Part shown: positions 2,392 to 22,316 of the stretch, piece by piece | Layout: each line of letters opens with the position of its first letter | Position numbering within the stretch: the first letter of the stretch is position 1 | NCBI GenBank assembly: GCA_002167345.2 | Contig: NHCZ02000012.1 | Coordinates: 34,532-76,772, forward strand | DNA length: 42,241 nucleotides | Direction: 5' to 3' | From: a bacterium TMED46 | Lineage (GTDB): Bacteria; Fidelibacterota; Marinisomatia; Marinisomatales; UBA1611 | Notes under the pieces: generated by a model | What the model was told of the DNA's origin: nothing | Databases searched by the model: none | What the model saw: the letters and a program-made list of their open reading frames with translations, nothing else | Program-made: the position numbers and the translations under genes

Positions 2392-2631
2392 CTACAATTT
2401 CCCTTGCTGGTCAAATCTTACTAGATCATCGTAGCCACCTATTGTATCATCATTGATCACAACCTGTGGGACAGTTCTTCCTCCTGTAATATCAAATAGA
2501 TCTTCTCTACTCCAACCTTTCTCTTCTATGTCAATTTCTTGGAAGTCCAGTCCCCTTTCTTGAAGAAGCTTTTTTGCCAACTTGCAAGGCTGGCACCATG
2601 AGGTTGAGTAAATGAAAATCTTTCTTTTCAT
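2392..2631 (-). CDS. glutaredoxin-family thiol oxidoreductase
   Basis: This 79-residue protein has the compact glutaredoxin fold layout: an N-terminal beta strand (KIFIYST), a CxxC redox site at Cys13-Gln-Pro-Cys16, the cis-proline motif TVPQ at 53-56, and the glutathione-binding loop GGYDDL at 65-70. Length matches bacterial Grx3/NrdH-size proteins. The CQPC site and GGYDD loop favour glutaredoxin over NrdH. There is no signal peptide, so it should act in the cytoplasm, reducing disulfides or glutathione adducts. Its ATG overlaps the stop of the upstream C25 gene by one base (TAATG), implying translational coupling. A small cytoplasmic redox protein at the end of a run of secreted-protein genes is odd and may simply reflect operon packing. 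Confidence 0.88.
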   Translation of the reverse strand: MKRKIFIYSTSWCQPCKLAKKLLQERGLDFQEIDIEEKGWSREDLFDITGGRTVPQVVINDDTIGGYDDLVRFDQQGKL

Positions 2632-5807: not shown

Positions 5808-8095
5808 TTTTTTACCGCTTGTTCTTTTTGAGTTTGAATTTTTATAAAATACATACCTGTGCTCGTCATAAGTCCATCCACATGAGCAAGATCTAGATCT
5901 ATTATCTGCTTCCCATTAGGCCTGTTATTAATAATTTTTGAAAATATATTCTGCCCTAATATATTATAAACGTTTACTTTCGCAGAACCTCCAGGATAAT
6001 GACCTACATTAACCTGAATTCTTCCGAAGGATGGGTTGGGATATATACCATTTATCTTCATTGGTATCTTTGGTACATTGTTTGTAGTAGAGGTCTGAAC
6101 ATCCAAATAATTATCAAAAGTAGAAAAAAGATCTAACGTGTATAGCTCCCAGCCTCTGTAATTAACTGTCTGATCTGGTGCAAATTCCAACCGTACTTTT
6201 ACAGAAGTGAATCCATCTTCAGATGTTGCAGTAATGAGGTCAGGTCTTAATTCCATCCATTGATCGCCCGCCCAAGACATAGATCCCAAAACGATATTAT
6301 TCTCATCTAGAAGTGATATTGTGGCCCTATCAAGATCCCATTCAGTTTCATAACGGTGTAAAACTGACAAAACAACGCGGTTCATTCCTGATACATCGAT
6401 CAATTCAGATTCCATCCACAAGGTTGAAAAAAGAGAGTCACCATTGTCATACATTTGTCCTTCTTGAGATCTTAAGGTGCCTAAGTGATCCATATACCAA
6501 GAACCCTCAAAATTGGGCCACGGCCAAGAGTCGCTAAGATCATATACGCTACCAGTCTGATAAGGTACAGATACCTCTTGATCAGAACTTACATGAATAG
6601 ATCGCTCCCAGGGCATGAAGGAACCGTCCATAAAAAATCGTATATCATAATATCCTTCTGTAAGATTAATTATATTATCTCCTGTTGATATTTGTATCTC
6701 ATTTGTTTCAAACTCATTACTGATCGTACCAGCGACGGTATTATTGTCAAATGTCTCATGTACCAATCTAATATTTAATTGATGAGTTGGGGCAACCTCT
6801 AGATATACATCATGCTCGGTGATGGCACTGTTATTTGCAACCAGTGATATTTCTTGATCTAAATAGCCCTTAGCTCTAAAGGAAAAAGTATAAGTCCCTA
6901 CATCCAGTATACGTCTATAACGCCCAAATTCATTAGTTAATCGGGGTTTTAATACGGAACCTGAGTGCTCTATTACTTCAACGTTCACATCCTTTACAGG
7001 CTCACCAGTTGAGGCATCAAGAATATTACCCGTTATCTGGGCTGCATCTGTATAATAGCCTATTGCACGGTCCATGAGATATATCATAGCTGGTTTATTC
7101 CTATCGATGGTGTCCTCAATTAAAGAGCTATCAGGTTGCAGATTAGAGGTCCCACACTCTACAAGGTATTGAATGGACCCTGTCTCTCTATAGAACCAGT
7201 CGTGCAACTTACCATTACGTGAACCACTGTAAACAGAAAGATAAGTACTTGTACCATCCTCAGTACTGATCGATCCAGCAAAATAATCTGCGATGGATTT
7301 CATAATAGCTAGATCTGGAGATTCTTTTACTTCTTCCCATTTCCAAGATGTAAAGACCTTCTCCGAAAGGTTACCTGAGCGGGAACTGTGCCACACGATT
7401 GAAAAAACAAAATCATTATCTAATGCAAGGTCTCTAATTGCAATTGCCTCACCCTCTGAAAAAGGTTCCTCACCTTTATAATAATCATAGTGAGAAGCAT
7501 AGTCAGAATTATCAGGTTCAAGGAACGTATCGCCAAATGTCCAGTTAAAACTAAAATTACGGTTTAGATCGACTCCATCAATGTCGTTACCTATTGAAGG
7601 GTCATAATCAAATAGTCCATTTGGGAAAGGACCATCCGGGGAAAGATCTCTTTTGTTTTTACGATAACTAAGATCTAGTTCTTCATGAACTACATTTAGA
7701 CCTTCTGGGTTTGCAGTGGGTATGATCCATATATCAAGATATTGTTTCAGGATACTCATATGAGTATAGATACTTGCATCAGGAAAAAGAAGATCATTAA
7801 TAAGATCTAAAACAATTTCGACTCCTAAAATCTCCTCTGCATGTACCTGCCCCACGAATAATACTCTAGGCTCATCCTCTTTTACATGTGCATTATCTGA
7901 TATACGCACTGCCAAAATAGGAATATTCTCTTGAGTTGAGAACCCGATGGTATCTAAATGAAACCAACCTTCAAGCTCTTCTAATTGATCCAATGAATCA
8001 AGATAACTATAGATCTCTTCCGTAGTATGGTACCGACCATCTAATGACTGAGCATACAGCGGCAGAAAAAGCATTATTGGCAGAATATACTTCAT
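5786..8095 (-). CDS. M14 zinc carboxypeptidase, secreted T9SS cargo
   Basis: The 769-residue product starts with a signal peptide (residues 1-15, LPLYAQ cleavage region) and an M14 domain (~20-345). All key residues are visible: zinc ligands His85 and Glu88 (QVHAEE) and His236 (IVWHSS), the substrate-binding DLNRN at 176-180, and general base Glu313 (LVECGT). A carboxypeptidase-regulatory-like beta domain follows (~352-430, TGNILDASTGEPVKDV), then a jelly-roll-like region (~500-660). A T9SS type A sorting domain ends the protein (YPNPSFGRIQV onward, ending CIILKN). It should trim C-terminal residues from extracellular peptides, complementing the endopeptidases nearby. The start lies 3 bases after the stop of the upstream propeller gene. 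Specificity cannot be read from the sequence. Confidence 0.92.
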   Translation of the reverse strand: MKYILPIMLFLPLYAQSLDGRYHTTEEIYSYLDSLDQLEELEGWFHLDTIGFSTQENIPILAVRISDNAHVKEDEPRVLFVGQVHAEEILGVEIVLDLINDLLFPDASIYTHMSILKQYLDIWIIPTANPEGLNVVHEELDLSYRKNKRDLSPDGPFPNGLFDYDPSIGNDIDGVDLNRNFSFNWTFGDTFLEPDNSDYASHYDYYKGEEPFSEGEAIAIRDLALDNDFVFSIVWHSSRSGNLSEKVFTSWKWEEVKESPDLAIMKSIADYFAGSISTEDGTSTYLSVYSGSRNGKLHDWFYRETGSIQYLVECGTSNLQPDSSLIEDTIDRNKPAMIYLMDRAIGYYTDAAQITGNILDASTGEPVKDVNVEVIEHSGSVLKPRLTNEFGRYRRILDVGTYTFSFRAKGYLDQEISLVANNSAITEHDVYLEVAPTHQLNIRLVHETFDNNTVAGTISNEFETNEIQISTGDNIINLTEGYYDIRFFMDGSFMPWERSIHVSSDQEVSVPYQTGSVYDLSDSWPWPNFEGSWYMDHLGTLRSQEGQMYDNGDSLFSTLWMESELIDVSGMNRVVLSVLHRYETEWDLDRATISLLDENNIVLGSMSWAGDQWMELRPDLITATSEDGFTSVKVRLEFAPDQTVNYRGWELYTLDLFSTFDNYLDVQTSTTNNVPKIPMKINGIYPNPSFGRIQVNVGHYPGGSAKVNVYNILGQNIFSKIINNRPNGKQIIDLDLAHVDGLMTSTGMYFIKIQTQKEQAVKKCIILKN

Positions 8096-8098
8096 TTT

Positions 8099-11000
8099 CT
8101 ACTTTAGGTATGTCACCTTACCTTTAACTATTGTGCCACTTGACTTAAACTTATATAAATATATACCGCTAGATACATTTTGGCCATTGAGATCTCTTGC
8201 ATCCCAACTGACACGATATGCACCCGCATTTCCAGGAAGTATCAACCTATCATATATAACATTGCCCCTCAGATCGTAAATTTGAAACTGAACTGCTTGC
8301 TCACTGGGCATTTCAAAATCAAAATTCAATTTCCCGTTAAAAGGATTCGGGTAAGCACTTTTCAATAGAAACTCATTTGGTGTCTGGCAGTTATCACAAG
8401 AATTTCCTGTAGAAAGGATATTCGCTTTTACAAGTGTCCTACCATAATAATTTGCAAGGTCCTCTTTACCCGAGCTTCTAAAATCGATCCAATCCAGAAA
8501 ATATTCTTCCCCAGAAAGATGTGTTATATTCACATTTTGTTGTTTATGATATGCTATACATATTGGAATACCGTTCATTGCGGTTGTCATTCCTTGTCCA
8601 ATAACATATCCACTCGCATAGAGATCTACTCCATTGATCAGCAAAGGATCATCATTATAATAGCCTCTTTCATCCTCCCAAATTACTAGAAACTCATTAT
8701 CCTGTAATGAGGCCAGGCGAGGGTTATATTGATCTGTGGTATCAACAGAAAATTGTATCTCATCCTGCTGCAATGTTCCGTTTGCAAGATTAAGAACTTC
8801 GCCATATATCTCAAAATCCGATCCATTTCGATAATCTTGCCATACTAAGAAAGCGTGGGTTCCAGATTCATTAAACTCAAATGAAACATTGACCTGGTCA
8901 TTATCTGCCTCAATAACAGGTATTCCACCTGGTTGCCATGCTTCATTACCATCCCAATCAATAGATTGAGCATATATATCTGAAAAATTACCATTTTGGA
9001 TCCAAACAGCAACCATACCACTCTGATCATCTACTACCTTGACCTGTAAGTGCCTGGAATCAGAAGAAGCATTACTCAAACTATTACCATTTGGATTCCA
9101 TCCGATCTCTATATTTCCTTCTTCATCCATCTTTGAATACTTAAGAGATGCTGCTGGCCAAGCATCTTCCATCCAGAATATCATAAATTTATCATCTGGA
9201 GTAGGAATCACGGACAATATGTAATCGTCTCCATTTGAATCCACCAGCTCTACACCTTCACTGGGTAGTGTTATATTACCTTCAGTATCTAGTTTCTGAT
9301 AGTATACATCATAATTAAATCCTCTACTCTCTGACCAGAAGCACCCTACACCATCTGAGGTCTCAACTAAAAGCGCATTACGCATATCAAACACTGCATC
9401 TAGGGCTACTCCACTTTCATCCCAGACATTGTTTAACCCTTCGTCTAGTTTATTGACCCTTATGAATTTTGGCGAGGAAGTTCCATCAAATGTTGCAGTA
9501 TATATTCCACTTGATGCATTTAACAGGTTAGGTATTGAGAAATCTGTTTCTGAAGAAGAATTATCCCCAAAGGTTAATTGCCTACCATTTTCATCTTGAA
9601 TTTCAAGAGATGTGAGACGAGAACCATATATTTTTTTTGAAGATCTGTTATCCTCCCAAACCAGATAAAGGTCGTCTTCAGATATTGGAAATGAATGTGT
9701 ATAATTAACATCACCATCTAGACCCAGCATAGCAGTAAGGCCATTATTTTCCCATTCTGCTGAGAAGTTTGAAGATACCTTCTGCACCTTAAGATCGATA
9801 CTTCCAGAACCTTGATCTCCATAGATAGCGAAAAGACCATTTTCAATTTTCCCTACAAGAATAGGTGCAAATTGATAGCCTGATGCATCAGATATTGCTA
9901 AAGGTTGCTCAATGCTATAGTTCCCATCAGAAGTAATATTTTGATAAAATATATCCACATCAGGAAATGTTCCCCTCTCCCAGAGAATGTTCAGGTCTCC
10001 ATTGGAATCTGCTGAAAATCGTGCGCTGAAATCCACATCATCAACAGGGTCCAGACGTATTCCATCACCCCACTGCTTATCACCATTTGTATTGATTTTT
10101 TGAAAATATTGATCTCCATCTATTGGATCATCTCTTAGATCTTTCCAGTTAACAAAGACTTCACCTGTTGCACTTCTTTTTACTCTTGGAGCAGTTTGAA
10201 GAGCTTGGTTGTCTGATATAGTTCTATCGTCACTGAATACCGTTCCGTTTTCATCAATGAATTGGTAAAAAACCCGTGAATCCTCATCACCTTTCTTCCA
10301 GGCAATAAAAGAAGTTGTATTTTCCACAAAAGTAGCACGTGGTTTAAGCTCTTGCTCTTCAGTAGAAGCGATAGGTATTCCATTCTCTTGAAATATAGCT
10401 TCCATTGAAGCATTCAGACGCTGACCATAAATATCAGCATTGGCTCCTTCTCTAAAGTCCGCCCAAGCAATAAATGCCTCCGAATTGCCCGCATACTCAA
10501 TGGTTTTTGCGTTTTGGTTTCCCCCTTCCGTGACAATAGCCACTCCAGTCCCTGGTGAAACGATATCGTGTTCAGATGATATGTGCGTGCCATAGATATC
10601 GTCGTCTACACCTCCTCGCTTATCTTGCCAAGTAACAAAAACACCACCCAGGCTGTCGGTACACATATTAATGGTTATTTGCTTACCTTCTACTTGAGCT
10701 AGAGCAACACCGTTTGAATCAAGTAAGATGTCACCATTATTGTCAAGATGCTGAAAAAATATATCCCCTTGCTCATCGAAACGATAATCAACCCAAGCTA
10801 CAAAGACACCTCCATTTCCGTCAGTAATAGATACAGGATCCTCTTGCCTGCCTGGAAGGTCTGTAACGATGGCTCCTAATTCACCCCAAAGAAGTTCACC
10901 GTCTTGATTGATCTTATGGGCAAATATGTTTCTCATACCATACCTGGTATCAGACCATACAAAAATAGCTTCTCCACTATTACCAGGAGAAACTGTTCGA

Positions 11001-11107
11001 TACCATTCGATATGTACACCCTGTCTAATTGCAGCGCCATCTTCTGTATCAAAACCAGTCGCTAATATAAATGATATTATGCTGGCACCAATCACCACCT
11101 TTTTCAT
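8099..11107 (-). CDS. large secreted beta-propeller-like repeat protein, T9SS cargo
   Basis: The 1002-residue product has a signal peptide (residues 1-17) followed by about a dozen degenerate repeats of ~45-60 residues. Each is centred on an AWxDxR-x-DIYxQ core ending in a G-x-x-W or G-x-x-L turn; examples are VAWVDYRFDEQGDIFFQ, VTWQDKRGGVDDDIYG, IAWADFREGANADIYG, LVWEDNRSSKKIYG and LVWQDYRNGSDFEIYG. Such WxD repeats typically build beta-propeller blades. A short CDNCQ linker precedes the T9SS type A sorting domain (YPNPFNGKLNF onward, ending VTYLK). No catalytic motif is visible, so a binding or scaffolding role on the cell surface is more likely than an enzyme. A strong Shine-Dalgarno sequence supports this start. 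The gene begins 32 bases after the lipoprotein gene stop. Confidence 0.83.
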   Translation of the reverse strand: MKKVVIGASIISFILATGFDTEDGAAIRQGVHIEWYRTVSPGNSGEAIFVWSDTRYGMRNIFAHKINQDGELLWGELGAIVTDLPGRQEDPVSITDGNGGVFVAWVDYRFDEQGDIFFQHLDNNGDILLDSNGVALAQVEGKQITINMCTDSLGGVFVTWQDKRGGVDDDIYGTHISSEHDIVSPGTGVAIVTEGGNQNAKTIEYAGNSEAFIAWADFREGANADIYGQRLNASMEAIFQENGIPIASTEEQELKPRATFVENTTSFIAWKKGDEDSRVFYQFIDENGTVFSDDRTISDNQALQTAPRVKRSATGEVFVNWKDLRDDPIDGDQYFQKINTNGDKQWGDGIRLDPVDDVDFSARFSADSNGDLNILWERGTFPDVDIFYQNITSDGNYSIEQPLAISDASGYQFAPILVGKIENGLFAIYGDQGSGSIDLKVQKVSSNFSAEWENNGLTAMLGLDGDVNYTHSFPISEDDLYLVWEDNRSSKKIYGSRLTSLEIQDENGRQLTFGDNSSSETDFSIPNLLNASSGIYTATFDGTSSPKFIRVNKLDEGLNNVWDESGVALDAVFDMRNALLVETSDGVGCFWSESRGFNYDVYYQKLDTEGNITLPSEGVELVDSNGDDYILSVIPTPDDKFMIFWMEDAWPAASLKYSKMDEEGNIEIGWNPNGNSLSNASSDSRHLQVKVVDDQSGMVAVWIQNGNFSDIYAQSIDWDGNEAWQPGGIPVIEADNDQVNVSFEFNESGTHAFLVWQDYRNGSDFEIYGEVLNLANGTLQQDEIQFSVDTTDQYNPRLASLQDNEFLVIWEDERGYYNDDPLLINGVDLYASGYVIGQGMTTAMNGIPICIAYHKQQNVNITHLSGEEYFLDWIDFRSSGKEDLANYYGRTLVKANILSTGNSCDNCQTPNEFLLKSAYPNPFNGKLNFDFEMPSEQAVQFQIYDLRGNVIYDRLILPGNAGAYRVSWDARDLNGQNVSSGIYLYKFKSSGTIVKGKVTYLK

Positions 11108-11113
11108 TTTATA

Positions 11114-11121
11114 CCTTCCTC
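11114..11121 (-). promoter_or_regulatory. strong ribosome binding site for the propeller protein gene
   Basis: On the minus strand GAGGAAGG lies 6 bases before the ATG at 11107. It is one of the clearest Shine-Dalgarno matches in the window and supports this start for the 1002-residue repeat protein. Confidence 0.75.
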
Positions 11122-11139
11122 AATATTTAATTTAATTTA

Positions 11140-12174
11140 TTACTGCTCAATGGTAATGACCCGTAATCCTTCACGAGTACAGACCAATATCTTATCTTCC
11201 CAGAATACCGATCTATAACTGTATCCAACTGGAAATATCCCTTTCTCTAATGGACTCGTCGGATCCGACACATCATAGAGAGCAATGCCTTTCGAGCCTA
11301 ATGTAAGAGAGGCAATATTTCCATTAATTGCTATATGGTCTACTGTAAGATCTTCGGCGAAACGGTAAGTCATATTATCTGATGAAAAACTTTCAATTGG
11401 AATGAATGCAGCACCTGCATCATCACAGGCAACATACACCCCTTCTGTCACCATAGTCACCTTTTCAGCATTACCTTCGGTGTCTATCCTACCAACTAAT
11501 TCTGGAACGGACCCGACTGAATCAATGGAAAAAAGTTCAACTCCAAGCTGGTCTACAGCCATTGCAATATAGCTAGAGCCATCTGAGTCAATTCCCATAG
11601 GTTTCCCAGGTGTATAGATCTCAGAACCCCCGAACGGTGTCCATTCAATGAATTCAATACCAAATGAGCTTGTAGTATCAAGGTTATAATAATGCCATTT
11701 CATACCATCATCATTATCTGCCGTATACATAACAAACTGTCCTGGCATTGTATAAAAGGATACAAAATCCTTTGTTCTTGCACTCATTATTGTATTTCTA
11801 TATGCGAGTTCATTATTGGTATCATGGTGAAATATCTTCACATCATCATTTGCTTCAGAGGCAAATATGAGATTGTTTTCAGTATCTACACCAACAAGAG
11901 ATACATCACTGAATTCAAGAAATGTACCACCTTCCTCATACCCAGTAAATCCGCTAGACATTGATAGGGTTGGTAGATCCCATATCTGAATTCCAGACTG
12001 ACCAGCTGCAATAATTGCAGAATTACCATCAATGTCAACATCTCTTGCAAATCCAATTGTTTGCAATGTTGCATCAATCGATATAGACCAAAGGTCCTCA
12101 CTACTGGGGTCCATGCAACCAAATAATGAAATTATAATGAAAAGAGAGACAATATTTTTTTTAATAATTATCAT
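11140..12174 (-). CDS. lipoprotein with LVIVD-like beta-propeller repeats
   Basis: The 344-residue product has a lipoprotein signal: Lys-Lys, a hydrophobic stretch, and LFGC with Cys20 as the probable lipidated residue. The mature part shows about six repeats of the LVIVD type, in which strands such as SAIIAAGQSGIQIWDL, IASLTLGSKGIALYDV and ILVCTREGLRVITI alternate with DPTSP-type turns. This is the pattern of LVIVD-repeat propellers found in envelope lipoproteins. The start overlaps the end of the predicted outer-membrane barrel gene by 14 bases, suggesting coupled translation. Its place directly after the pgs-associated barrel hints at an outer-membrane partner of that module, but no specific function can be assigned. 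Confidence 0.78.
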   Translation of the reverse strand: MIIIKKNIVSLFIIISLFGCMDPSSEDLWSISIDATLQTIGFARDVDIDGNSAIIAAGQSGIQIWDLPTLSMSSGFTGYEEGGTFLEFSDVSLVGVDTENNLIFASEANDDVKIFHHDTNNELAYRNTIMSARTKDFVSFYTMPGQFVMYTADNDDGMKWHYYNLDTTSSFGIEFIEWTPFGGSEIYTPGKPMGIDSDGSSYIAMAVDQLGVELFSIDSVGSVPELVGRIDTEGNAEKVTMVTEGVYVACDDAGAAFIPIESFSSDNMTYRFAEDLTVDHIAINGNIASLTLGSKGIALYDVSDPTSPLEKGIFPVGYSYRSVFWEDKILVCTREGLRVITIEQ

Positions 12175-13192
12175 AGATCATATCCCATTTAAGCGTTAAC
12201 CAAAATTGAATTTGTTCAAAACTCTTAAGATCTTTTACCCAGTCATATTCAGAGTCAGTTTGACGTGTTCTATATCTTGCTGATAAGGTGAGATCAACGA
12301 TTTCAGTTATATTCTTTTTAAACCAAATATCGTATTTAGAGTCTAAATGACTTCTGCCTGCATGTAAAGGATCGTTAGGGTCTTCGGCATCATATACTCT
12401 TTTCTCGAAACGAGTTGATAATCCTATCTCTCTAAAGAAAGGAACCTGTTTATTTACCTTAATTGGAGCATACCACTCTACAGTCTCATATGAACGATTA
12501 AAACTACTGGGTCTTTCAGGTAGAAAATGTGATTCGTTGACCGCACGTCCGTAATTTAATTGAAGTGAAATAGTACCGGTCTTTTTGATCTTATAATTCA
12601 GTTTGGCTTTGTAATAGAATATATCCAAGTCAAACTCAATAAATGGTTTTGCATAATATCTTTGTAAATATCCAGCACCAACATTCATCCATGAATGCTT
12701 AGATATGCGTTGAGACAGCAAGAGACTTTGATTTCTATCTGTAAAAAGACAAGGTTCCAGCTGTTCATTACTTATATCTTTGTTGACGTAGTGTCTAAGG
12801 TAAAACTGGTCTAAATGCCGGAGTGAATATTTGATATTTTTATACGAACCCCATTTGTATAAGACATCAAACCCACCAGACCAATATTTCTTTTCAGGTG
12901 TGTTCCTATAATTAGAAGATGAATAAAGCACTTTAATATCAATACTATGAGATCTTGAGTATATGAATGATTTTGTCCCATATAGGCTAAATCTTGTTAT
13001 AAAGCTATCAAAGGTAGATGAGCCACCCATAATACCGATATCTTGCACAGCCTCATTGATCTCATTTTGTGAAAACCGTAAAACATTATCATCATAGCCA
13101 CCAGTGACCGCTAAGGTGTATTCAATAGGTGTACTGCCCCATATTTTTGAAAGAATGAGGATAGTAAATGATATTTTAATATATGTATTCAT
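12161..13192 (-). CDS. predicted outer-membrane beta-barrel protein
   Basis: The 343-residue product has a cleavable signal peptide (residues ~1-19, ending IWGS). It continues as alternating polar and aromatic/hydrophobic strands separated by short turns, opening with YTLAVTGGYDDNVLRFS and ending LTLKWDMIYDNY. Many strands have amphipathic spacing (for example FIYSRSHSIDIKVLYSSS and GTISLQLNYGRAV), which is typical of a 12-16-strand barrel. No named family is recognised. Its ATG overlaps the stop of the upstream secreted-protein gene by one base (TAATG), and it lies three genes downstream of pgsC. That position makes it a candidate outer-membrane component for polymer export or anchoring, which is inference from context only. 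Confidence 0.68.
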   Translation of the reverse strand: MNTYIKISFTILILSKIWGSTPIEYTLAVTGGYDDNVLRFSQNEINEAVQDIGIMGGSSTFDSFITRFSLYGTKSFIYSRSHSIDIKVLYSSSNYRNTPEKKYWSGGFDVLYKWGSYKNIKYSLRHLDQFYLRHYVNKDISNEQLEPCLFTDRNQSLLLSQRISKHSWMNVGAGYLQRYYAKPFIEFDLDIFYYKAKLNYKIKKTGTISLQLNYGRAVNESHFLPERPSSFNRSYETVEWYAPIKVNKQVPFFREIGLSTRFEKRVYDAEDPNDPLHAGRSHLDSKYDIWFKKNITEIVDLTLSARYRTRQTDSEYDWVKDLKSFEQIQFWLTLKWDMIYDNY

Positions 13193-14067
13193 TAGTAAAG
13201 TATAAAACGGGTGAGGACTACTTTATCCCTATCTAAAACTTCTAGGTCGTACCGGTGTTTTCCCCTGGGAACATTGAACTCACAAGACCTCCACTTTCCG
13301 GGGACTTTATCCATTCTTCCTTTGATCTGTGATGCGGAGGACCTTTCTGTACTAAAATAATAAGTTCCAATGATCTTATTCCCTTCACTTACTCTTAAAC
13401 GATATGCTTCTTCCTGTCCCATTTGCTCAGAAAACTGAAGACGGGTCATAATGCGCATTGTCTTTTTACCTTTTGCTTCAATTTGCAAGGGAAGTTCAGG
13501 ACTGCATTCAAAATAGTTAATTATTTTTCCATCGGTCTCCAATTGGACTGCACTCTTATGAACCATGGGCATTAAGACCTTTTTACTCTTTCCAAGGGAT
13601 TCAAATTCTTTGGTAATAAGACGAATTAGAACAGGATATTTTTGATCTTCATCTGGTAAAAGCTCAATAGTATGTGACCCTTTGTCTAGATTTATAAAAT
13701 AATTACCTGAATATGTATAATTATGCTTAGGATGTTGCACGGACCTGATCGATCTTTGCACTTTGTAGCGATGTTTAACATTGACAGTATCTTTGCCATC
13801 TAAAACAATAGAGTATTGAAATGAATGACTTTTTTTCTTCTTTTTTATAACTGGATATCTTGAAATAAACTCTATTCTACTAGGACCTTCGATAGCATAA
13901 TGAATACTTTCTCTTTTGAGCGGATAATAGAGCCTCCTTTTGTCATTGATTATCAAAATCTCTTTCTCATCGCCACTTTTTGATGGTTTAATTAATTTGG
14001 CCTCTAAAGGCAAAAAAGAAAAGATTAGAAAAAGTACTAGTGTTCTATAATAAGCTATCTGGTTCAT
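13192..14067 (-). CDS. secreted protein of unknown function linked to the pgs genes
   Basis: I do not recognise this 291-residue protein. It has a signal peptide (residues ~1-23, LIFSFLPLEAK) and then an all-beta-looking mature region with a Lys-rich patch near residues 75-80. A repeated theme of strand pairs, such as NYFINLDKGSHTIELLPD and FNVPRGKHRYDLEVLDRD, resembles carbohydrate-binding or Ig-like sandwich modules. No cysteine pattern or catalytic motif stands out. It overlaps the end of pgsW by 23 bases and the start of the barrel gene by one base, so it is almost certainly co-translated with both. A periplasmic role between the polyglutamate synthase and the outer-membrane barrel is plausible but not shown. 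Confidence 0.62.
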   Translation of the reverse strand: MNQIAYYRTLVLFLIFSFLPLEAKLIKPSKSGDEKEILIINDKRRLYYPLKRESIHYAIEGPSRIEFISRYPVIKKKKKSHSFQYSIVLDGKDTVNVKHRYKVQRSIRSVQHPKHNYTYSGNYFINLDKGSHTIELLPDEDQKYPVLIRLITKEFESLGKSKKVLMPMVHKSAVQLETDGKIINYFECSPELPLQIEAKGKKTMRIMTRLQFSEQMGQEEAYRLRVSEGNKIIGTYYFSTERSSASQIKGRMDKVPGKWRSCEFNVPRGKHRYDLEVLDRDKVVLTRFILY

Positions 14068-15211
14068 GCTGTAATAAATGTTCTTTTATTTTTCGTTTAC
14101 TATGTAATCCAACAGAAAAAACGCTGCCGCTAACCACCAAGAGGCACAGAGCGGCAACCAATATATTATAACGCTCATCTGCATATAAACTACCATTGCC
14201 TATTTCAGGTATCGGAATCGGCGCAAATGGCATCTTAAACTGCTCTGTGAGCGGTCGAATATTAAGGATATGTAGACCCGGAACATTAGAATTTAAAAAT
14301 TTAGATAATACCCCTTCAATTCCACCAGGTCGCCCAATATTTGAGATATCTGATCGGATAACCACACCAGGCGGTAATAGCCTTAAATTAAAACTAGTAC
14401 CTAGGCTGGCCACACCTCCACCAACATTAATGACCGCTTTATAATTACTTATTTTTTTAATACCTGAAAAAATATCCATCCTGTGTTCAATATTTTCTGC
14501 TAATCTATCCTTGCGTATAATTGGTATATCATGATATTGGATGTTATCTGTTATGATATTTCTCCCTGCAGGAGATAATAACCTACCCATGTCATTGCGA
14601 CCACCGATTGATGCGGCTATACTCTTTGTAGGTATAAGATCATTTTCAAAGAGAATTTTCTCCATATCAAGCCAAGTAAAATCAACTTGATTTGCTCCCC
14701 ATTGAGACGCGCCAACACTTGTAATAGATATGGGATGAATACCTAAGGCCTTACAAGCAGTTAAAACCGCTATATTCGCTCCCGGCATTGACCCAGTCAT
14801 CAGGAGGGCGACCGTATCTTTTGAGCTCAAATTTAGCTGGACCATAAGATCAACAATCCCAGCTGAAAGATTAGGGTCCAATGTGGTTAATTTAGAGTCG
14901 AGATCACCTTCATCTGTTGTGATCAAACTAAAAGGACTTCCAACCAATCCTGTTTCATTTGGATCGTTCTCAATATCAATGAATACACCTGACTCCATCC
15001 TACTGCCTTTAAGTACATCCATTCCTTTTTTCATAAGCTCTGCTGCTTGAACCTTTTGTTCATAAGAGCCAGAAACATTGATGGTCCGAGTATTGATCGC
15101 TATAAGAAAGCATACCAGAGATAGTAATGATAAAAATACCAAAGTAGAGGTTTTCTGGATAGCAGGTATGAAGGGTTGCTTTTTATAATTATTCAAAAAG
15201 TACTCCACCAA
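14045..15211 (-). CDS. pgsW: poly-gamma-glutamate system protein PgsW
   Basis: The 388-residue product matches the poly-gamma-glutamate system protein family that accompanies PgsB and PgsC in some bacteria. An N-terminal membrane segment (~24-40) precedes a large Gly-rich domain with LLMTGSMPGANIAVLTA, SITSVGASQWGANQ, SIGGRNDMG, INVGGGVASLG and IGRPGGIEGVLS. A second membrane segment follows near residues 350-370, with a short basic tail. The layout suggests a periplasmic domain held between two membrane spans, though topology is inferred. The start overlaps pgsC by 23 bases. The biochemical role of this family is not established. In this locus it takes the place where pgsA/capA is usually expected, but it is not a PgsA homologue. 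Confidence 0.82.
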   Translation of the reverse strand: MVEYFLNNYKKQPFIPAIQKTSTLVFLSLLSLVCFLIAINTRTINVSGSYEQKVQAAELMKKGMDVLKGSRMESGVFIDIENDPNETGLVGSPFSLITTDEGDLDSKLTTLDPNLSAGIVDLMVQLNLSSKDTVALLMTGSMPGANIAVLTACKALGIHPISITSVGASQWGANQVDFTWLDMEKILFENDLIPTKSIAASIGGRNDMGRLLSPAGRNIITDNIQYHDIPIIRKDRLAENIEHRMDIFSGIKKISNYKAVINVGGGVASLGTSFNLRLLPPGVVIRSDISNIGRPGGIEGVLSKFLNSNVPGLHILNIRPLTEQFKMPFAPIPIPEIGNGSLYADERYNILVAALCLLVVSGSVFSVGLHSKRKIKEHLLQHEPDSLL

Positions 15212-15632
15212 AAAGCAATATAACAGATAGTTTCACCATGACAGCAGTTAGCAAAACAACAGAAAGTGTTCGAATGATTCCTTGGCGGTCCATCCAATTT
15301 GCTATCAAACCTGGGATAATATTACCAATAACAGCTGCAGAACCAATATCTTGTGGAAGATAAATAAAATTTCTTGATATATACCCAAAAAAGAATCCAA
15401 GTATAAGGGCTAAAACAATACGGCGTTTGCCATAGAGAAACATCACTTTCCCCATACCCTGAATAATTGCCCAAACCAATATGGCTACAAAGAAGGTTAC
15501 CAATACTTGCAGGGGTTCATGCAAATATAAAGCAATATACCCAGGAACAATAATTCCACCAGCAGTAACACCTAGTGTTTCTGATAGTACTAAACTAAGA
15601 AATATCCCTAAACCGATGCTTATTTCAACCAT
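15189..15632 (-). CDS. pgsC: poly-gamma-glutamate synthase subunit PgsC (CapC)
   Basis: This 147-residue integral membrane protein has about four hydrophobic spans. Its N-terminal region reads SETLGVTAGGIIVPGYIALY, a hallmark of PgsC/CapC, and the length (~150 residues) is normal for the family. PgsC pairs with the PgsB ligase in the inner membrane to form the polyglutamate synthase and probably helps pass the growing chain across the membrane. The gene overlaps pgsB by 8 bases and pgsW by 23, so the three are tightly coupled. Confidence 0.9.
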   Translation of the reverse strand: MVEISIGLGIFLSLVLSETLGVTAGGIIVPGYIALYLHEPLQVLVTFFVAILVWAIIQGMGKVMFLYGKRRIVLALILGFFFGYISRNFIYLPQDIGSAAVIGNIIPGLIANWMDRQGIIRTLSVVLLTAVMVKLSVILLFGGVLFE

Positions 15633-16806
15633 GGTGTTTGTACTCTGATATCAATTGTAATATATCTTGTCCAGCGCCAACCTGATTACCAATAGCATAT
15701 ATCAATGTATCATTTGGCAGTTTTTCTAGAAGATCCACCACCTCATTCAAGGGCTCATCTAGTCCGACAACTTTTACATCTGTTTTCGGCGAATGATGGC
15801 TTAATCCTTTTATAGCAGAGGTAACTTTATCTCCTCTTATAATGAAGTGATCAGGTTTTATTTCTTCTAGAGTTAGTTCTACCATTTGGCGTGTTCTTAA
15901 TGGTCTGTCCTCTCTTGAATTAAAAAACACACAAGTGCCGCCAACAGCTGGATAACGATCGATCACAAATTTCCATATCTGCAGAGTCGATACTGGGTCA
16001 TTTGCTGCCATACCATTTATAAACTGCAGCCTTTTCTCCTTCATATCTAGGTTCCATGCCACAAGTGCGCCAAGATCAGGCTGTACTTTATGCATCCCAG
16101 CTAGAGCGATGTCTCGACTTATACCTGCCTCTTTACATACATCAAGCGCAACTGCAACATTCGAAGGATGCTCCATGTAGGTGAATTGGTCTAACTCATC
16201 ATTAGTAACTGACTGATCATCAGAAAAAATAAGATCTGAACGATTTGAGCTTGCAACTTCCTTTAAGATATCTTTTTTCTGGTCTTCTCCAGTGATAAGG
16301 ATAGCATCAACGGGAATGGTATTGCATAAGGAATAAGCCACGTCATCTTCTGTTGGCCCCATTTCATCTAGATGATCTGGACGTACATTAGTAATGACAC
16401 CAATATGCGATCTAACCATTTGATGCTCAGCTATCCATTGATATTGAGGTTGTACTGCCATGCATTCCATGACCACTGCCTGTGGTCTTTCTGAGGCAAA
16501 ATAACTAAGTAATCTTACCTGTTCGCCTATAGATGGCAAACGCAAACGATGTATGATACGGTCTTTGCCTTCTGAATCGATCACCCTTGGAGCGGTTCCC
16601 GTAGTTTTCGCAAAGGTTCTAAGTCCTCCTTCTCGCAGTCCAGCTGCGACAAGCCGAGTTACGCTAGACTTTCCCCGAGTGCCATTGACATGTATCCTTA
16701 ACGGTATAGCATCCAGAGAGCGAAGATGGTATTGAAATTCAAGAATGCCAGCAATACATAGTGCAAAAGCAAGTGCGCCAAGCACAATAAGAGGAATAGT
16801 TGCCAT
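15625..16806 (-). CDS. pgsB: poly-gamma-glutamate synthase PgsB (CapB), Mur-ligase family
   Basis: The 393-residue product is an ATP-dependent amide ligase of the Mur-ligase superfamily. After an N-terminal membrane segment (~3-23) it carries the P-loop NGTRGKSS (41-48), TTGTAPR (68-74), VVMECMAVQP with Glu114, VITNVRPDHLDEMG (137-150), INGMAANDP and FFNSREDRPLRTRQM. All of these are typical of PgsB/CapB, and the length matches the ~395 residues of known members. It is expected to polymerise glutamate through gamma-carboxyl linkages on the cytoplasmic face, working with PgsC. There is no clear Shine-Dalgarno before this ATG. The start is 20 bases after the upstream C25 gene. The actual monomer (L- or D-Glu, or a related amino acid) cannot be told from the sequence. 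Confidence 0.93.
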   Translation of the reverse strand: MATIPLIVLGALAFALCIAGILEFQYHLRSLDAIPLRIHVNGTRGKSSVTRLVAAGLREGGLRTFAKTTGTAPRVIDSEGKDRIIHRLRLPSIGEQVRLLSYFASERPQAVVMECMAVQPQYQWIAEHQMVRSHIGVITNVRPDHLDEMGPTEDDVAYSLCNTIPVDAILITGEDQKKDILKEVASSNRSDLIFSDDQSVTNDELDQFTYMEHPSNVAVALDVCKEAGISRDIALAGMHKVQPDLGALVAWNLDMKEKRLQFINGMAANDPVSTLQIWKFVIDRYPAVGGTCVFFNSREDRPLRTRQMVELTLEEIKPDHFIIRGDKVTSAIKGLSHHSPKTDVKVVGLDEPLNEVVDLLEKLPNDTLIYAIGNQVGAGQDILQLISEYKHHG

Positions 16807-16826
16807 TACATCTTAAATGGATCTTT

Positions 16827-19800
16827 TTATTCTTGGTTGTACCCCATGATCATCTGGATCAGAGATATAAGATCCATTACATTGACCATGCCGTCTCCAT
16901 TAATATCTCCAAAGAAAGGATTTACCTGTCCCTCATAACCAAGGTTAAAATCTACCAATAACATCAGATCATAGATGTCTATTACCTCATCATAGTTTAG
17001 ATCACCCTCTAATCTCATGTCACTTCCACGAGTAGTGATCAATACAGCTGTTTCATCTGATAATTCCATTGCAGCGGGGTGATAGGTATCATTGAATGTA
17101 TACTGAAGACCTCTTGACATAGTATGATCTTCTATTCCGACTGAACAATAAAGTCCGTGGGTCTGATCCCAACTATAGGAACCGTAAGATGTATTATTGA
17201 ATTCTTTATACTGTAGAAGAATCTCACCATCTCCAGTAGGGGTGATATAATAGCTAGGGTCATATAAAACCGCTTGGAATGTTTCAAGTGAGTTATTCTG
17301 ATATGTTCTAGCCTCTGACCATTCTACGTAGAACTTCTTTTCTATCTGGTCATGCCAAGTGTAGACCCTTCCACCATTTGATAATTTAAGGTCATCCCAG
17401 AAAACAGCTATCATTTTAGCTGGACCACCCACCCCAGGAATTTGATAGTTTCGAAATGATTCAAGGTCTGTATCACCCATAGCGATCCAGCCATTTGAAC
17501 AGATACTGATCTCATCATATTCCTGACCATAAAATTTAAATGTAAAAGGCAAACTGATCGTCTGAACATCATCCTGATTATTACCATTATCTGTAAGCGA
17601 ATTTAGATGAGTTCCTGGACCTCCTTCTCTGGCATCGATCTCAACCCAATCGTACGTTGGTGCTAAAACATAGTTAATATCTTCATTATCGTATATGTAG
17701 TAGCCATAGGAGTCTGGCCCGACAGGGTCATTAACAGTAGGCTGTCCTATTTGCACCTCAATAATAGAATTAGTTGAATAGCCATCTTCAGTTTCAAGAC
17801 TAACGATCAAATGTGCGATAGCTCCAGGAATTGTCACATCAAGAGCGCTTACTTCAAAATAGTCATTACCATTAAATGACGACCCACCAGAATTAACTGA
17901 GGTCCATGTCCCACTATCATCTATTATTTCTATAAAAGGTGATGCACACGTTATGGTGCCGGATATCGACACTGCATGGGTTGAACCAGTATTATTCAAT
18001 TCGATCTTGATATATGAAGATTCTCCAGGCGTTAGAACATCACTAGCTGAACCAAGTACATCAACATCACTTGCACTTATTGAATTGCCATGTGCAACTA
18101 TATCGAGTACTCCATTGAAATTTCCACCCTCATTATCTACAAAGTTGACAATGAGATCAAGATTACTACCTTGCGCTAAACCATCATTCAGTACTACTAG
18201 ATACGGTAAACTGCCATTAATAGTTTCACCAGATGCAATATCACCAAATTCTACCATATTTGCTGTAGAATCAATGAGAACATTGCCACTGGTTGATACT
18301 AAATAGCCAATTACATTAGTTGCATCCACAGAGCCATAATTCTTAGCACTTACATAGATTTCTATTGCTTCACCACCATTTGCCACAAAGTCACCATTAC
18401 CACTTGACTGACCTGAACCATCATCATAAAGTGTGTAGGGTGAAGAACCAACTCCGATGGCTACGCCTGGGTCATGTATCTGGAATGAGTTTTGATATGG
18501 ATAATGATTTTTCTTAGTAACAGTGACGAGCACCTCTCCAGTCTCAAATGATGTGACTGGTAACCTAACAAATCCTTGGGCATCGGTATATCCAGACTCA
18601 AATATCTCGTCTTCCATAAGAATTGTCACCCATGCACCTTCGACAGGACCATTATCTTTATCTACTGTAATGTCTATAAAGTTTGAACCGGTAGTAACCA
18701 TGTATGGGTGCGTGACCGTTGTCATTTCGGGATAATCGGTCCACATCTGAAGTGAGGACTCTCCCATAAGATTATTCCAATGCGTAAAGATATGACAGTA
18801 ATTATTCGGATTTGATGGATAGTTCGTATAGAGCATCATTTTACCATACATCAGTGCCGCACCGGGTGTATCAAGGCCTTTTAACAATGCACCATAATAA
18901 AAACCCATATCAACAATATTATTGAACATTGTGTGCGTGCCAAGTGTTGCAGTTCCAATACAGACAACAGAACCTTTTGGATTTGAGGATGTTCCTGCTC
19001 TAAGGAAAGATTCACTGAGGGCCTCATTGTTAGAAGCAAATGAACCAGTTCCACATGTGATCACAGTAGCAACTGGTAACATAAAACCATTGGACGTACT
19101 ATTCACGTCACTAGATCCAAAACCGCTCACACCGTAATATCCCCTATAATTGAAAAGAGAGACACCTTCATTGAGTCCTGATGTCATCTGGCTTGGGAAA
19201 GATCCACTGTAAACTGTATTGACTTCTTCGTAACCAGCAAGGTCTAACATCTCATGTATATTCTCATTTGTAATAACACAAGAAATACCTGAAGTATTTG
19301 GATCGCCTACTAGACAGGCACGTTGAAACCAATTTTCATTCATGTAGGGGTTTGATTCATAATTCAGCGTCTTACTGATGATCGTATTTAAATGTGAGCT
19401 TGAAGAAAAACTCAGCCTTCCAATGAAAACCTCAGGATATACATCCCCACCTTCTAGGGTAGTATATGGCTGATCACCCTCGCCATTGTAGCCACTATAT
19501 GACTCCGTCCATGTGGGTATATCATAGCTACCAGTAGCATCGCCAACAATATTTACATGCACAGGTGGGTTGTCCCATGTCTCGTACGCTTCTTCGATAT
19601 AATCTTTTAGATTGTTCCTATTATTTACAACGTTTGAAGAAGAGACATATTGCACGTCATACCCTACTCTTTTTTTCCAATCCATGAGTTGTTCTACTGT
19701 ACCTAGGAGATTACCAATATTGTTCGGTAAAACGTAGAGTATGCAAGGACGTTGATAGTCCACTTCATCCCTGGACATAGAACTATAGTTGATTATTAAG

Positions 19801-20414
19801 GATTCATATAAAGCTTCAAATTCGCGCGATCTTTTCTGCGGTATAAATGGCATATCGACAGTACCTGACTCTAACAACTCTACGTCAGCACTGTGAATGA
19901 TCATCAATTCTTTTGTCACAGGATTATACTGAAAGGGTGTCAATGAAACTTGAACCATTACAATATCTCTAAATACCATAGGTTCGGAAACTGTAGCGAT
20001 CTGATCTGGGAAGGTCATATCATGATTATAAACAGTGCCCTTGGTAAAATTCCCAGTTAGCTCAGGTTCCCAGCTTTCAAACGGCAGGACCTCCACATTA
20101 GGGATGGTTTCAGACTCTTGGATAGAAACCTCGACCGTATAAGATTTACCAGGCTCTGTGGCATAAAAGGTAGAGACTGTTGGAATATCAGGCTGACCAG
20201 ACTCTACTTTTGAACCTGCGCCAGATATTTCTGGTTTAATGTAGAAAGTACCATTTTTATCCACCTCAGTTAATTCAAACCCTGGAATAGAAAAACTGAG
20301 TTGTTTTTCCATATTGGTAATATCAAAACCGCTGAAGCTTACGTCAGAGCTTTCTGATGCAACTAAAATGTTGAAAACTGCAATAATCCATAACCGACCG
20401 CATATTTTTGTCAT
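16827..20414 (-). CDS. C25 (gingipain)-family secreted protein with C-terminal dockerin, catalytic His absent
   Basis: The 1195-residue product has a signal peptide (1-20), a gingipain-type propeptide-like region (~25-220), a C25 core (~225-570), Ig-like and CARDB-like beta domains (~600-890), a NIDO-like domain (~895-1130), and a dockerin pair in the last ~59 residues (GDLNYDEVIDIYDLMLLVD and GDINGDGMVNVMDLISLI). The core shows VNIVGDATGSYDIPT, VFIGRLSF and the nucleophile region VITCGTGSFA with Cys454. The His of the usual GHG is missing, as NYRGYYGVSGF places Tyr at 426 and 427. Unlike the other big secreted proteins here, it ends in dockerin-like calcium-binding repeats instead of a T9SS sorting domain. 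GAGG 5 bases before the ATG is its ribosome site. It lies between pilD and pgsB, 11 bases after pilD. Confidence 0.87.
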   Translation of the reverse strand: MTKICGRLWIIAVFNILVASESSDVSFSGFDITNMEKQLSFSIPGFELTEVDKNGTFYIKPEISGAGSKVESGQPDIPTVSTFYATEPGKSYTVEVSIQESETIPNVEVLPFESWEPELTGNFTKGTVYNHDMTFPDQIATVSEPMVFRDIVMVQVSLTPFQYNPVTKELMIIHSADVELLESGTVDMPFIPQKRSREFEALYESLIINYSSMSRDEVDYQRPCILYVLPNNIGNLLGTVEQLMDWKKRVGYDVQYVSSSNVVNNRNNLKDYIEEAYETWDNPPVHVNIVGDATGSYDIPTWTESYSGYNGEGDQPYTTLEGGDVYPEVFIGRLSFSSSSHLNTIISKTLNYESNPYMNENWFQRACLVGDPNTSGISCVITNENIHEMLDLAGYEEVNTVYSGSFPSQMTSGLNEGVSLFNYRGYYGVSGFGSSDVNSTSNGFMLPVATVITCGTGSFASNNEALSESFLRAGTSSNPKGSVVCIGTATLGTHTMFNNIVDMGFYYGALLKGLDTPGAALMYGKMMLYTNYPSNPNNYCHIFTHWNNLMGESSLQMWTDYPEMTTVTHPYMVTTGSNFIDITVDKDNGPVEGAWVTILMEDEIFESGYTDAQGFVRLPVTSFETGEVLVTVTKKNHYPYQNSFQIHDPGVAIGVGSSPYTLYDDGSGQSSGNGDFVANGGEAIEIYVSAKNYGSVDATNVIGYLVSTSGNVLIDSTANMVEFGDIASGETINGSLPYLVVLNDGLAQGSNLDLIVNFVDNEGGNFNGVLDIVAHGNSISASDVDVLGSASDVLTPGESSYIKIELNNTGSTHAVSISGTITCASPFIEIIDDSGTWTSVNSGGSSFNGNDYFEVSALDVTIPGAIAHLIVSLETEDGYSTNSIIEVQIGQPTVNDPVGPDSYGYYIYDNEDINYVLAPTYDWVEIDAREGGPGTHLNSLTDNGNNQDDVQTISLPFTFKFYGQEYDEISICSNGWIAMGDTDLESFRNYQIPGVGGPAKMIAVFWDDLKLSNGGRVYTWHDQIEKKFYVEWSEARTYQNNSLETFQAVLYDPSYYITPTGDGEILLQYKEFNNTSYGSYSWDQTHGLYCSVGIEDHTMSRGLQYTFNDTYHPAAMELSDETAVLITTRGSDMRLEGDLNYDEVIDIYDLMLLVDFNLGYEGQVNPFFGDINGDGMVNVMDLISLIQMIMGYNQE

Positions 20415-20425
20415 GTCTGCCTCTA

Positions 20426-21067
20426 TTATAATATCAATAAATGAAAGAATTCCGGATAGTAGAAACTACCAACATAAGTACCCGTTCCTGCAATAGATAA
20501 AAACGGGGCCATTGGCATCGCCCTGTCTTTATCAAAATCTGTTACTAAAGAAACGCCTAACCAGGTTAATAAACTCAAAACCGATGCACTAAATAAGGTT
20601 ATGGCCATTCTGGTAGGCCCTAACCATGCCCCTAAAACTATACCCATTTGTATGTCACCAAACCCCATCCCCTGACGTTTTGTGACCGACCATAATGCTC
20701 CCATAATGATTAGTGGTATGACTGCTCCAACAAATATACCCCAAAGTGCAGAACTTAGAAATATCACATCCAGTATTATGGCAATGAATGCAATGGCTAG
20801 GCCCATAAGAATGAAAACGACAGGAATCTGGAATGTTCTTAGGTCAACAAATGCAATTCCAGCCAATACAGTCACAATGAATGAAAATATAAAAGCCTCA
20901 TTCATGGGAAGGCTATAGAATGCCCATGTGAATGAAACCATGCCAATGAATTCCATACTCGGATCTTTTATGTTCATTTCATATCCATCTATAGAAAGCC
21001 AGTTGACGATATGCTTTATTCCATGTCCGGACATCAAACCACCAATGATTGGTAAGACCTGACCCAT
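20426..21067 (-). CDS. pilD: prepilin peptidase (A24 aspartic protease), lacking the methyltransferase loop
   Basis: This polytopic membrane protein carries both A24 active-site aspartates: Asp in FVDLRTFQIP and the GxGD motif in GMGFGDIQMG. It therefore cleaves prepilin leader peptides at the inner membrane. The ATG at 21067 (start of MGQVLPIIGG) lies 1 base after the pilC stop and gives 213 residues. A longer reading from 21127 would overlap pilC by 59 bases with a non-family N-terminus. The usual ~100-residue N-terminal part with GSFLNVV and two CxxC pairs, which methylates the processed pilin, is largely absent: after MSGHGIKHIVNWL the sequence jumps to a DPSMEFIG segment. Pilin methylation may be missing or done by another enzyme. 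It serves the pilins encoded upstream. Confidence 0.85.
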   Translation of the reverse strand: MGQVLPIIGGLMSGHGIKHIVNWLSIDGYEMNIKDPSMEFIGMVSFTWAFYSLPMNEAFIFSFIVTVLAGIAFVDLRTFQIPVVFILMGLAIAFIAIILDVIFLSSALWGIFVGAVIPLIIMGALWSVTKRQGMGFGDIQMGIVLGAWLGPTRMAITLFSASVLSLLTWLGVSLVTDFDKDRAMPMAPFLSIAGTGTYVGSFYYPEFFHLLIL

Positions 21068-21068
21068 A

Positions 21069-22316
21069 TTATAATCCAGATTGCAGAGCCGACCCCAAAT
21101 GGAATACAGGCAGATATGTGAGTACAACCATTAAAGCTATGACTGCCCCTACCATTAGTATAAGTAAAGGCTCGATAAGGGTTGTCATTCTATCAACGAG
21201 TGCATCTACCTGTTTCTGGTAGTAGTCTGCAGCTCTATCCAGAAGGTCATCCAATTCTCCTGTATCTTCACCCGTGGATGCTAATTGTAGCAGTATAGAT
21301 GGGAATACCTCTGTCCTTCTAAGTGCCGTTGATATATTATATCCGTCCCTTATAAGATCGGATGCATCATCTATAGCTCTTTCATAGACTTTATTATCAA
21401 CTACTTTTCTTAGTAAAGCAGTGGTCTCAAGAACTGGAACGCCTGCACCAATGAGAATACCAAATGTCTTACAAAATTTATTCAATATAGATTGCTCAAT
21501 TAATGCACCAAAAACTGGGATCTTTAGTTTAATAGTATCTAGAGTGTAACCACCTCGCTGCGTCTTGGATATGAGCCAAATTATAGAAAAGACTGTAAAA
21601 ATTGAAAAAGCAAGAAAACCAATATTGTTACCAAACCAGGTACTAAAATCGATCATTTGCCGCGTAGCGGCAGGAAGCCCTGCTCCTAGTTGAGAATACA
21701 CCTGAGAAAATTTAGGTATGATCACCAAGAGCATTACCATCAGCATAGCAATGAGGAATAGGATCATGAAAATCGGGTAATTCATCGCTGACTTTACCTT
21801 TCTACGTGTATCATCCAAATTCTCAAGGTAAGAAGATAATTGCTCAAGGATCTCATTCAGGTTACCGCTCACTTCACCAGCCTTTACCATCGCAACAAAT
21901 AAAGTATTAAAAACACCTGGATGCCTTGATAAGGATTCTGAAAGGTTAAGACCCTTACGAATATTTTCACTGACAGTGTTCAATATCTTCTGAAATTTTC
22001 TATGTTTCTCTTCGACTCCTAGGCTTTGTATAGCACGCTCAAGTGTAAGGCCTGCAGAAAACATTGTAGCAAGCTGCCGGGTAAAAAATACAATATTAGA
22101 AAGTGGGATTCTATTCTTGGCTTTTTCTATTGATAATTGTATTTCATCAATAAATGGACCAAGAAAATCAAAGGTGTCATCTACTTCTTTAAGAGTAATG
22201 ACCATTTGACCATTAGCGGATAATTTCTGCACCGCAGTATCAAGGGAGTCTGCACGGATCTCTCCTTCTTTTCTCTTTCCCTCAGGATCCTTGGTCAAAT
22301 AATTAAATACTGCCAC
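21069..22316 (-). CDS. pilC: type IV pilus inner-membrane platform protein PilC (GspF family)
   Basis: The 415-residue product has the standard layout of the family. A cytoplasmic N-terminus starts with FNYLTKDPEGKRKEGEI, followed by two repeated T2SSF domains, each with FxRQLATMFSAGL-type or FGILIGAGVP-type cores. There are three membrane spans near residues 170-195, 220-245 and 380-405. GEVSGNLNEILEQLSSYLE and GEDTGELDDLLDRAADYY are the paired GE-x-G motifs of GspF/PilC. It forms the platform linking the PilB and PilT motors to the growing pilus. Its start overlaps the last base of pilB, and pilD follows 1 base after its stop. Confidence 0.95.
   Translation of the reverse strand: MAVFNYLTKDPEGKRKEGEIRADSLDTAVQKLSANGQMVITLKEVDDTFDFLGPFIDEIQLSIEKAKNRIPLSNIVFFTRQLATMFSAGLTLERAIQSLGVEEKHRKFQKILNTVSENIRKGLNLSESLSRHPGVFNTLFVAMVKAGEVSGNLNEILEQLSSYLENLDDTRRKVKSAMNYPIFMILFLIAMLMVMLLVIIPKFSQVYSQLGAGLPAATRQMIDFSTWFGNNIGFLAFSIFTVFSIIWLISKTQRGGYTLDTIKLKIPVFGALIEQSILNKFCKTFGILIGAGVPVLETTALLRKVVDNKVYERAIDDASDLIRDGYNISTALRRTEVFPSILLQLASTGEDTGELDDLLDRAADYYQKQVDALVDRMTTLIEPLLILMVGAVIALMVVLTYLPVFHLGSALQSGL

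Follow-up and report, generated by a model that had tools for sequence, protein, structure and literature searches.

The pgs locus

The stretch of DNA analysed here (the window) comprises 42,241 nucleotides (nt) of the bacterium TMED46, on contig C37 of a 2.35-Mb genome that is 96.8% complete, and carries the genes for PgsB, PgsC and PgsW, three proteins of the poly-gamma-glutamate (PGA) system. In a tree of PgsW sequences, the window protein groups with those of the Fidelibacterota (Marinimicrobia, SAR406). The three genes belong to a set of six minus-strand open reading frames (ORFs) at 11140-16806, each overlapping its neighbour; the other three encode an exported protein of 291 amino acids (aa), here called sec291, an outer-membrane barrel, and a lipoprotein:

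15625..16806, minus strand: pgsB, poly-gamma-glutamate synthase ligase; 393 aa, P-loop GTRGKSS; TIGR04012, Mur_ligase_M PF08245
15189..15632, minus strand: pgsC, integral membrane partner; 147 aa; TIGR04011, PF14102
14045..15211, minus strand: pgsW, poly-gamma-glutamate system protein; 388 aa, TTG start assumed; TIGR04332
13192..14067, minus strand: sec291, exported basic protein with two tandem β-sandwich domains resembling carbohydrate-binding modules (CBMs); 291 aa, signal peptide by inspection
12161..13192, minus strand: 14-strand outer-membrane β-barrel, proposed exit channel; 343 aa; AlphaFold, Foldseek
11140..12174, minus strand: LVIVD-like lipoprotein; 344 aa, lipobox LFGC (LFGC/MD); PF08309, 20.0 bits

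An earlier sequence-only reading of the window had described six overlapping genes, and all six lie on the minus strand where it had placed them, with overlaps of 1 to 23 nt: 8 nt for pgsB/pgsC (15625-15632), 23 nt for pgsC/pgsW (15189-15211, conditional on the TTG start of pgsW), 23 nt for pgsW/sec291 (14045-14067), 1 nt for sec291/barrel (13192) and 14 nt for barrel/lipoprotein (12161-12174). That reading had also assigned PgsB and PgsC to their families from motifs, an assignment borne out by the profile scores: both proteins exceed the NCBIfam cut-offs, PgsB with 410.6 bits to TIGR04012 (E 5e-123; cut-off 222.7) and PgsC with 117.8 bits to TIGR04011 (cut-off 96.45; PF14102, E 5e-32), and so does PgsW, with 284.6 bits to TIGR04332 (E 9e-85; cut-off 100). 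Judged by sequence, the three are bona fide members of their families. PgsW has a hydrophobic stretch at both ends, its core being presumably periplasmic, and conserves the motifs TGSMPGAN, GASxWGAN and GGxxDxGR. A sequence search of solved structures with the PgsW, sec291 and barrel alignments returned no credible match.

The secreted protein and the barrel

Sec291 matches no curated family in Pfam or NCBIfam, and a Pfam scan of 50 members of its family yields only scattered weak matches, most often to MtxA Ig-like (8/50; best E 0.002, below the cut-off where bits are shown). Its AlphaFold model (pLDDT 91.7) consists of a signal helix followed by two β-sandwich domains. The two halves are an internal duplication (hhalign E 3e-26), and each keeps a Tyr...Gly-Pro...Ser-Arg pattern at equivalent sites (Y47/G61/R70 and Y185/G200/R209). 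The best Foldseek matches are tandem carbohydrate-binding modules, CBM51/CBM22 (E 2e-6); the whole-chain TM-score to them is low because the domains are arranged differently. Sec291 is also strongly basic: the isoelectric point of the mature protein is 9.7, and across loci the family's median net charge is +17.5, whereas the remaining exported families there, barrels aside, range from -28 to -103, with the LVIVD, C25 and type IX secretion system (T9SS)-tailed proteins all strongly acidic. From the modelled fold and this charge, we propose that sec291 is a periplasmic polymer-binding adaptor.

The AlphaFold model of the barrel (pLDDT 92.1, pTM 0.86) has 14 strands. Its nearest Foldseek neighbours are OmpG, CymA and other porins, with a TM-score to OmpG of 0.63-0.66 on the target at a sequence identity of about 10%; the barrel is thus a 14-strand up-down barrel of the OmpG/CymA type in fold only. 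The sole profile to match the barrel family recurrently is EpsL (TIGR03014), an exosortase-associated outer-membrane protein, which finds 5 of the 43 members (best E 1e-5). Membership is ruled out by the score, since the window barrel reaches 23.1 bits against a cut-off of 275, and the gene context of EpsL is different. A clear place in some unrelated transporter family had been named beforehand as grounds for abandoning an export role; the profile and Foldseek searches place the barrel clearly in none.

Ordinary porins are most variable on their extracellular side. The window barrel shares strand number and fold with the monomeric porins OmpG and CymA (TM-score up to 0.66 on the target), but here the extracellular side is the conserved one: the 34 most conserved positions, the initiator Met aside, are all predicted to lie in extracellular loops or in the outer halves of strands, on the assumption that both termini are periplasmic, as for even-stranded barrels. 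The conserved residues on this side include R133, R265, R280, R310, K323 and H277, plus several Asp.

A conserved five-gene unit

Is the arrangement peculiar to this genome? TIGR04332 was searched in 149 Fidelibacterota genomes, with about 15 kb taken around most matches, and genome-wide profile searches, which count a gene at any position, find PgsW in 55 of them, sec291 in 54 and the barrel in 52. PgsW is present in 53 of the 54 genomes with sec291 and in 51 of the 52 with the barrel, and sec291 and the barrel occur together in 52, a pairing that is genetic; in the sole genome with sec291 and no PgsW (G029), the locus is cut at a contig end. PgsC tracks PgsW across these genomes. Of the 46 PgsW loci of Fidelibacterota that could be assessed, 43 keep the order pgsB-pgsC-pgsW-sec291-barrel, and in 54 of 105 measured loci pgsW and sec291 overlap by exactly 23 nt; the gene packing is therefore more than chance.

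The unit extends well beyond this phylum. A diverse PgsW alignment gave no stretch conserved enough for a DNA scan, so a tighter PgsW set was used; this skews the named loci towards type A (type B is described below), and the genome-wide family searches serve as a balance. The scan of named genomes recovered 80 loci, of which 60 have both sec291 and the barrel, two have sec291 only and five have neither, the rest being truncated or unscored (in L119, L120, L140 and L148, pgsW was missed by the greedy ORF caller). Carriers of the module include Bacteroidota, Ignavibacteriota, Zixibacteria, Cloacimonadota, Calditrichota, KSB1 and unplaced lineages. In an independent set of 248 Bacteroidota genomes, nine have PgsW and four a clear sec291, in all four beside PgsW. 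The search for the same gene order in other genomes of the Fibrobacteres-Chlorobi-Bacteroidetes (FCB) group, named in advance as the test that could refute the proposal, thus came out in its favour, in 43 of 46 Fidelibacterota loci and in further phyla: sec291 and the 14-strand barrel form one conserved unit with PgsBCW across several FCB-group phyla.

Four loci of the scan (L108, L124, L128 and L145) come from entries titled Armatimonadota, Puniceispirillum and Verrucomicrobia; all but L145 branch among FCB-group PgsW, and these are probably misnamed bins.

The lipoprotein is less constant. It scores 20.0 bits against the LVIVD profile PF08309 (cut-off 20.2) over one stretch, and its gene is present in 36 of the 43 complete Fidelibacterota clusters, in most of those of Bacteroidota and in those of Ignavibacteriota and KSB1, but not in the clusters of Zixibacteria, Cloacimonadota and Calditrichota. 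The sequence-only reading had counted it among the candidates for the export route; it is a lineage-specific extra, absent from the loci of these three phyla, and the minimal module is therefore pgsB-C-W-sec291-barrel.

PgsBCW loci of other composition

Not every diderm pgsBCW is tied to sec291 and the barrel: the association holds within Fidelibacterota and several other phyla, but it fails in type B and in some other loci. Type B comprises nine PgsW proteins of Bacteroidota and Fidelibacterota on one branch (SH-aLRT 100; L057, L068, L070, L076 and L170-L174), whose loci share PgsB, PgsC and PgsW with those described above and have neither sec291 nor the barrel. The scanned ones encode instead a gamma-glutamyltranspeptidase (PF01019) and, downstream, type IX-tailed proteins; DUF6305 occurs in at least one and an Asp/Glu racemase in another (L068), which also encodes a type IX-tailed N-formylglutamate amidohydrolase-like protein. 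The transpeptidase and racemase neighbours fit a real gamma-glutamyl polymer metabolism.

On the opposite side of the PgsW tree, sec291 and the barrel are also not seen in a few unplaced lineages that form a small clade (L111, L112, L133, L144, L147 and L156), nor in the Cloacimonadota locus L142, some of these loci stopping at contig ends. In the UBP14-like L147 (9475-17689), the genes of four other proteins, secreted or membrane-bound (421, 601, 428 and 766 aa), come after pgsC and pgsW, perhaps a different outer-membrane solution.

C25-like and CapA proteins

Immediately upstream of pgsB in the window lies a further secreted protein gene:

16827..20414, minus strand: C25 gingipain-like secreted protein with a C-terminal dockerin; PF01364, E 1e-43; 20 nt upstream of pgsB

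A C25-like gene directly precedes pgsB in 66 loci, Bacteroidota included. The six genes first described are all there, but the run probably begins one gene earlier, with this C25 gene as its first. The C25 protein at 16827-20414 keeps the Cys and reads NYRGY at the gingipain-type His position; in the motif alignment, the C25-like proteins of the window (16827-20414 and 2631-5807) and of L083, L088, L093, L087, L175, L176 and L081 read NYRG[Y/W/E/Q], where gingipains read NYTGH. The catalytic His thus seems to have been lost and the Cys retained in these sequences, which possibly form a subfamily linked to PGA loci that is altered or no longer acts as a peptidase. The type IX sortase PorU is itself a C25 protein, and SprA is encoded in the source genome.

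The sequence-only reading had reported no PgsA/CapA homologue in the window. This holds for the nine window proteins scanned (8099-21127), none of which matches PF09587, but the organism does have a CapA-type protein on another contig: the sole PF09587 domain of the genome lies within a 1,585-aa ORF that also has PKD and dockerin domains (C15; L078:5321-10078). CapA was considered as a missing core part and rejected: PF09587 overall is only loosely associated with PgsW (30/61, p 0.015), and 25 sec291-bearing Fidelibacterota genomes have no match to it. Its forms differ in distribution within the Fidelibacterota, where sec291 is present in 26 of the 27 genomes having the long secreted form (p 5e-13) and short forms are anticorrelated with sec291. 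PKD-CapA proteins of the long form, about 1,000 aa in size and in several cases type IX-tailed, are found in Melioribacter, Bacteroidota, Cloacimonadota and other carriers (including L164, L165 and L167-L169). In Melioribacter, the gene sits between those of C25 and PgsB (L093:3995-7006); in L175 (14485-15999), it follows C25. CapA is an optional, apparently surface-exposed partner in these systems.

Relation to known systems

The nearest system in kind is the PgsBCA/CapBCA(DE) of Bacillus, with which the window shares equivalog-level PgsB and PgsC and a short overlapping operon. In Bacillus, PgsA/CapA is encoded with PgsB and PgsC; here, PgsW (TIGR04332) stands in the place of PgsA, and the operon lacks CapA but includes two extra components, a periplasmic protein and a barrel of the outer membrane. 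The PGA model of a capsule finder requires CapB and CapC, with CapA and CapE as accessory and CapD as a loner, and names no outer-membrane component (PMC5542703).

In working principle, the nearest system is the composite translocon of outer-membrane polysaccharide-export (OPX) protein and β-barrel, EpsY/EpsX of Myxococcus, in which a periplasmic protein and an outer-membrane barrel end a polymer pathway (PMC12004946). The window has the same genetic pairing of barrel and periplasmic protein, but the likeness stops at the principle: the polymer would be a polyamide rather than a sugar, the locus shows no co-polymerase or kinase, and sec291 has no OPX match in Pfam or NCBIfam, nor has its 50-member family in Pfam. 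Among other diderms, polyglutamate production is reported for Fusobacterium nucleatum (Candela et al., 2009, as cited in PMC3815933), and Francisella capA is listed as a "poly-gamma-glutamate system protein", the same name as that of PgsW (PMC5362203), which is a lead only. In the openly accessible papers searched, no outer-membrane exporter or exit route for PGA was found for any diderm.

A model for synthesis and export, and its alternatives

How could an anionic chain made at the inner membrane reach the surface of a diderm? We consider it rather probable that pgsBCW-sec291-barrel is a self-contained PGA synthesis-and-export operon of diderms. PgsB, an ATP-dependent ligase, and PgsC would polymerise the gamma-glutamyl chain at the inner membrane; PgsW, anchored there at both ends with its core in the periplasm, would replace the PgsA of Bacillus and pass the chain on; the basic double β-sandwich of sec291 would bind the polyanion in the periplasm and bridge to the barrel; and the barrel, with its conserved Arg, His and Lys at the extracellular mouth, would let the chain out to the surface. 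Where type IX secretion exists, the LVIVD lipoprotein, the C25-like protein and secreted PKD-CapA may act as surface accessories that anchor or trim the chain or control its length. Of this model, the protein families, the gene linkage, the folds and the charge are shown; the nature of the polymer, the direction of transport and the contacts between the proteins are inferred. A bolder version, which we regard as rather unlikely, holds that type IX-secreting diderms have shifted the role of CapA from the inner membrane to the outside of the cell, so that PgsBCW feeds sec291 and the barrel, and PKD-CapA, the altered C25 protein and the LVIVD lipoprotein receive, trim or anchor the chain.

Several observations weigh against the export model. 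The barrel is absent at L114 and L139, and both sec291 and the barrel at L112, L133, L142, L147 and L156, with enough flanking DNA in each case; from the loci lacking them, it follows that the two are not universally required. A porin-like barrel with 14 strands could work in uptake or have a general function, and its extracellular-side conservation could equally reflect a surface partner. The Fisher p values for co-occurrence with PgsW (9e-37 for sec291, 7e-34 for the barrel) are descriptive and ignore shared ancestry.

It is accordingly conceivable, if unlikely, that the polymer is made and displayed through some other channel, and that sec291 and the barrel anchor or organise it (e.g., by holding the chain end) or take up its breakdown products. 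An OmpG/CymA-like fold is typical of uptake porins, sec291 resembles ligand-binding modules, and neither protein is present in the type B clade or in some of the type A loci. Yet this arrangement sits poorly with the strict pairing of the two and their gene overlap with the synthase in several phyla, and no other outer-membrane gene is seen beside pgsBCW as constantly in the loci compared. A role in degradation, moreover, would lead one to expect hydrolase genes next to pgsBCW as regularly as the barrel gene, and no such genes are seen.

A second alternative, which we find likewise unlikely, changes the product: PgsBCW would make some other gamma-glutamyl compound, for instance a short polyglutamyl tag carried by a lipid or by a protein at the surface, and the partners that are decorated or do the decorating would be the C25-like, LVIVD and type IX proteins. 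The abundance of C25-like genes upstream of pgsB, the kinship with the C25 sortase PorU, and the type IX sorting tails on neighbouring proteins in a genome that encodes SprA speak for a tag, as does Francisella capBCA, which is of unknown function and whose capB and capC are not needed for the capsule (PMC4688374). However, the core occurs without an adjoining C25 or LVIVD gene in loci of Zixibacteria, Calditrichota and Cloacimonadota, and the C25 relatives here are without the gingipain-type His. That a porin and a secreted protein share the operon with pgsBCW by chance, as unrelated genes often overlap in gene-dense genomes, is refuted by the comparative data, the order being kept across phyla and sec291 almost never found without PgsW.

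If the export model is true, a polyglutamate coat is predicted in the abundant, uncultured marine SAR406/Fidelibacterota, and sec291 and the barrel provide a marker pair for finding such systems in other diderms. Since the locus points to two candidate proteins, for which folds and conserved residues are at hand, the exit route of PGA in diderms becomes directly testable.

The wider gene neighbourhood

Two further minus-strand genes flank the run:

20426-21127, minus strand: type IV prepilin peptidase (A24) gene; 11 nt upstream of the C25 gene
8099..11107, minus strand: secreted protein with a type IX C-terminal sorting domain; 1,002 aa; TIGR04183/PF18962; 32 nt downstream of the lipoprotein gene

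Genes on the minus strand continue far upstream beyond the prepilin peptidase gene, so the operon may start further upstream than the C25 gene. At the other end, the 1,002-aa type IX-tailed protein, whose membership in the pgs system is uncertain, is the first of three large secreted proteins (1,002, 769 and 1,058 aa; 2631-11107) that follow the lipoprotein in the same direction and are kept in most Fidelibacterota loci.

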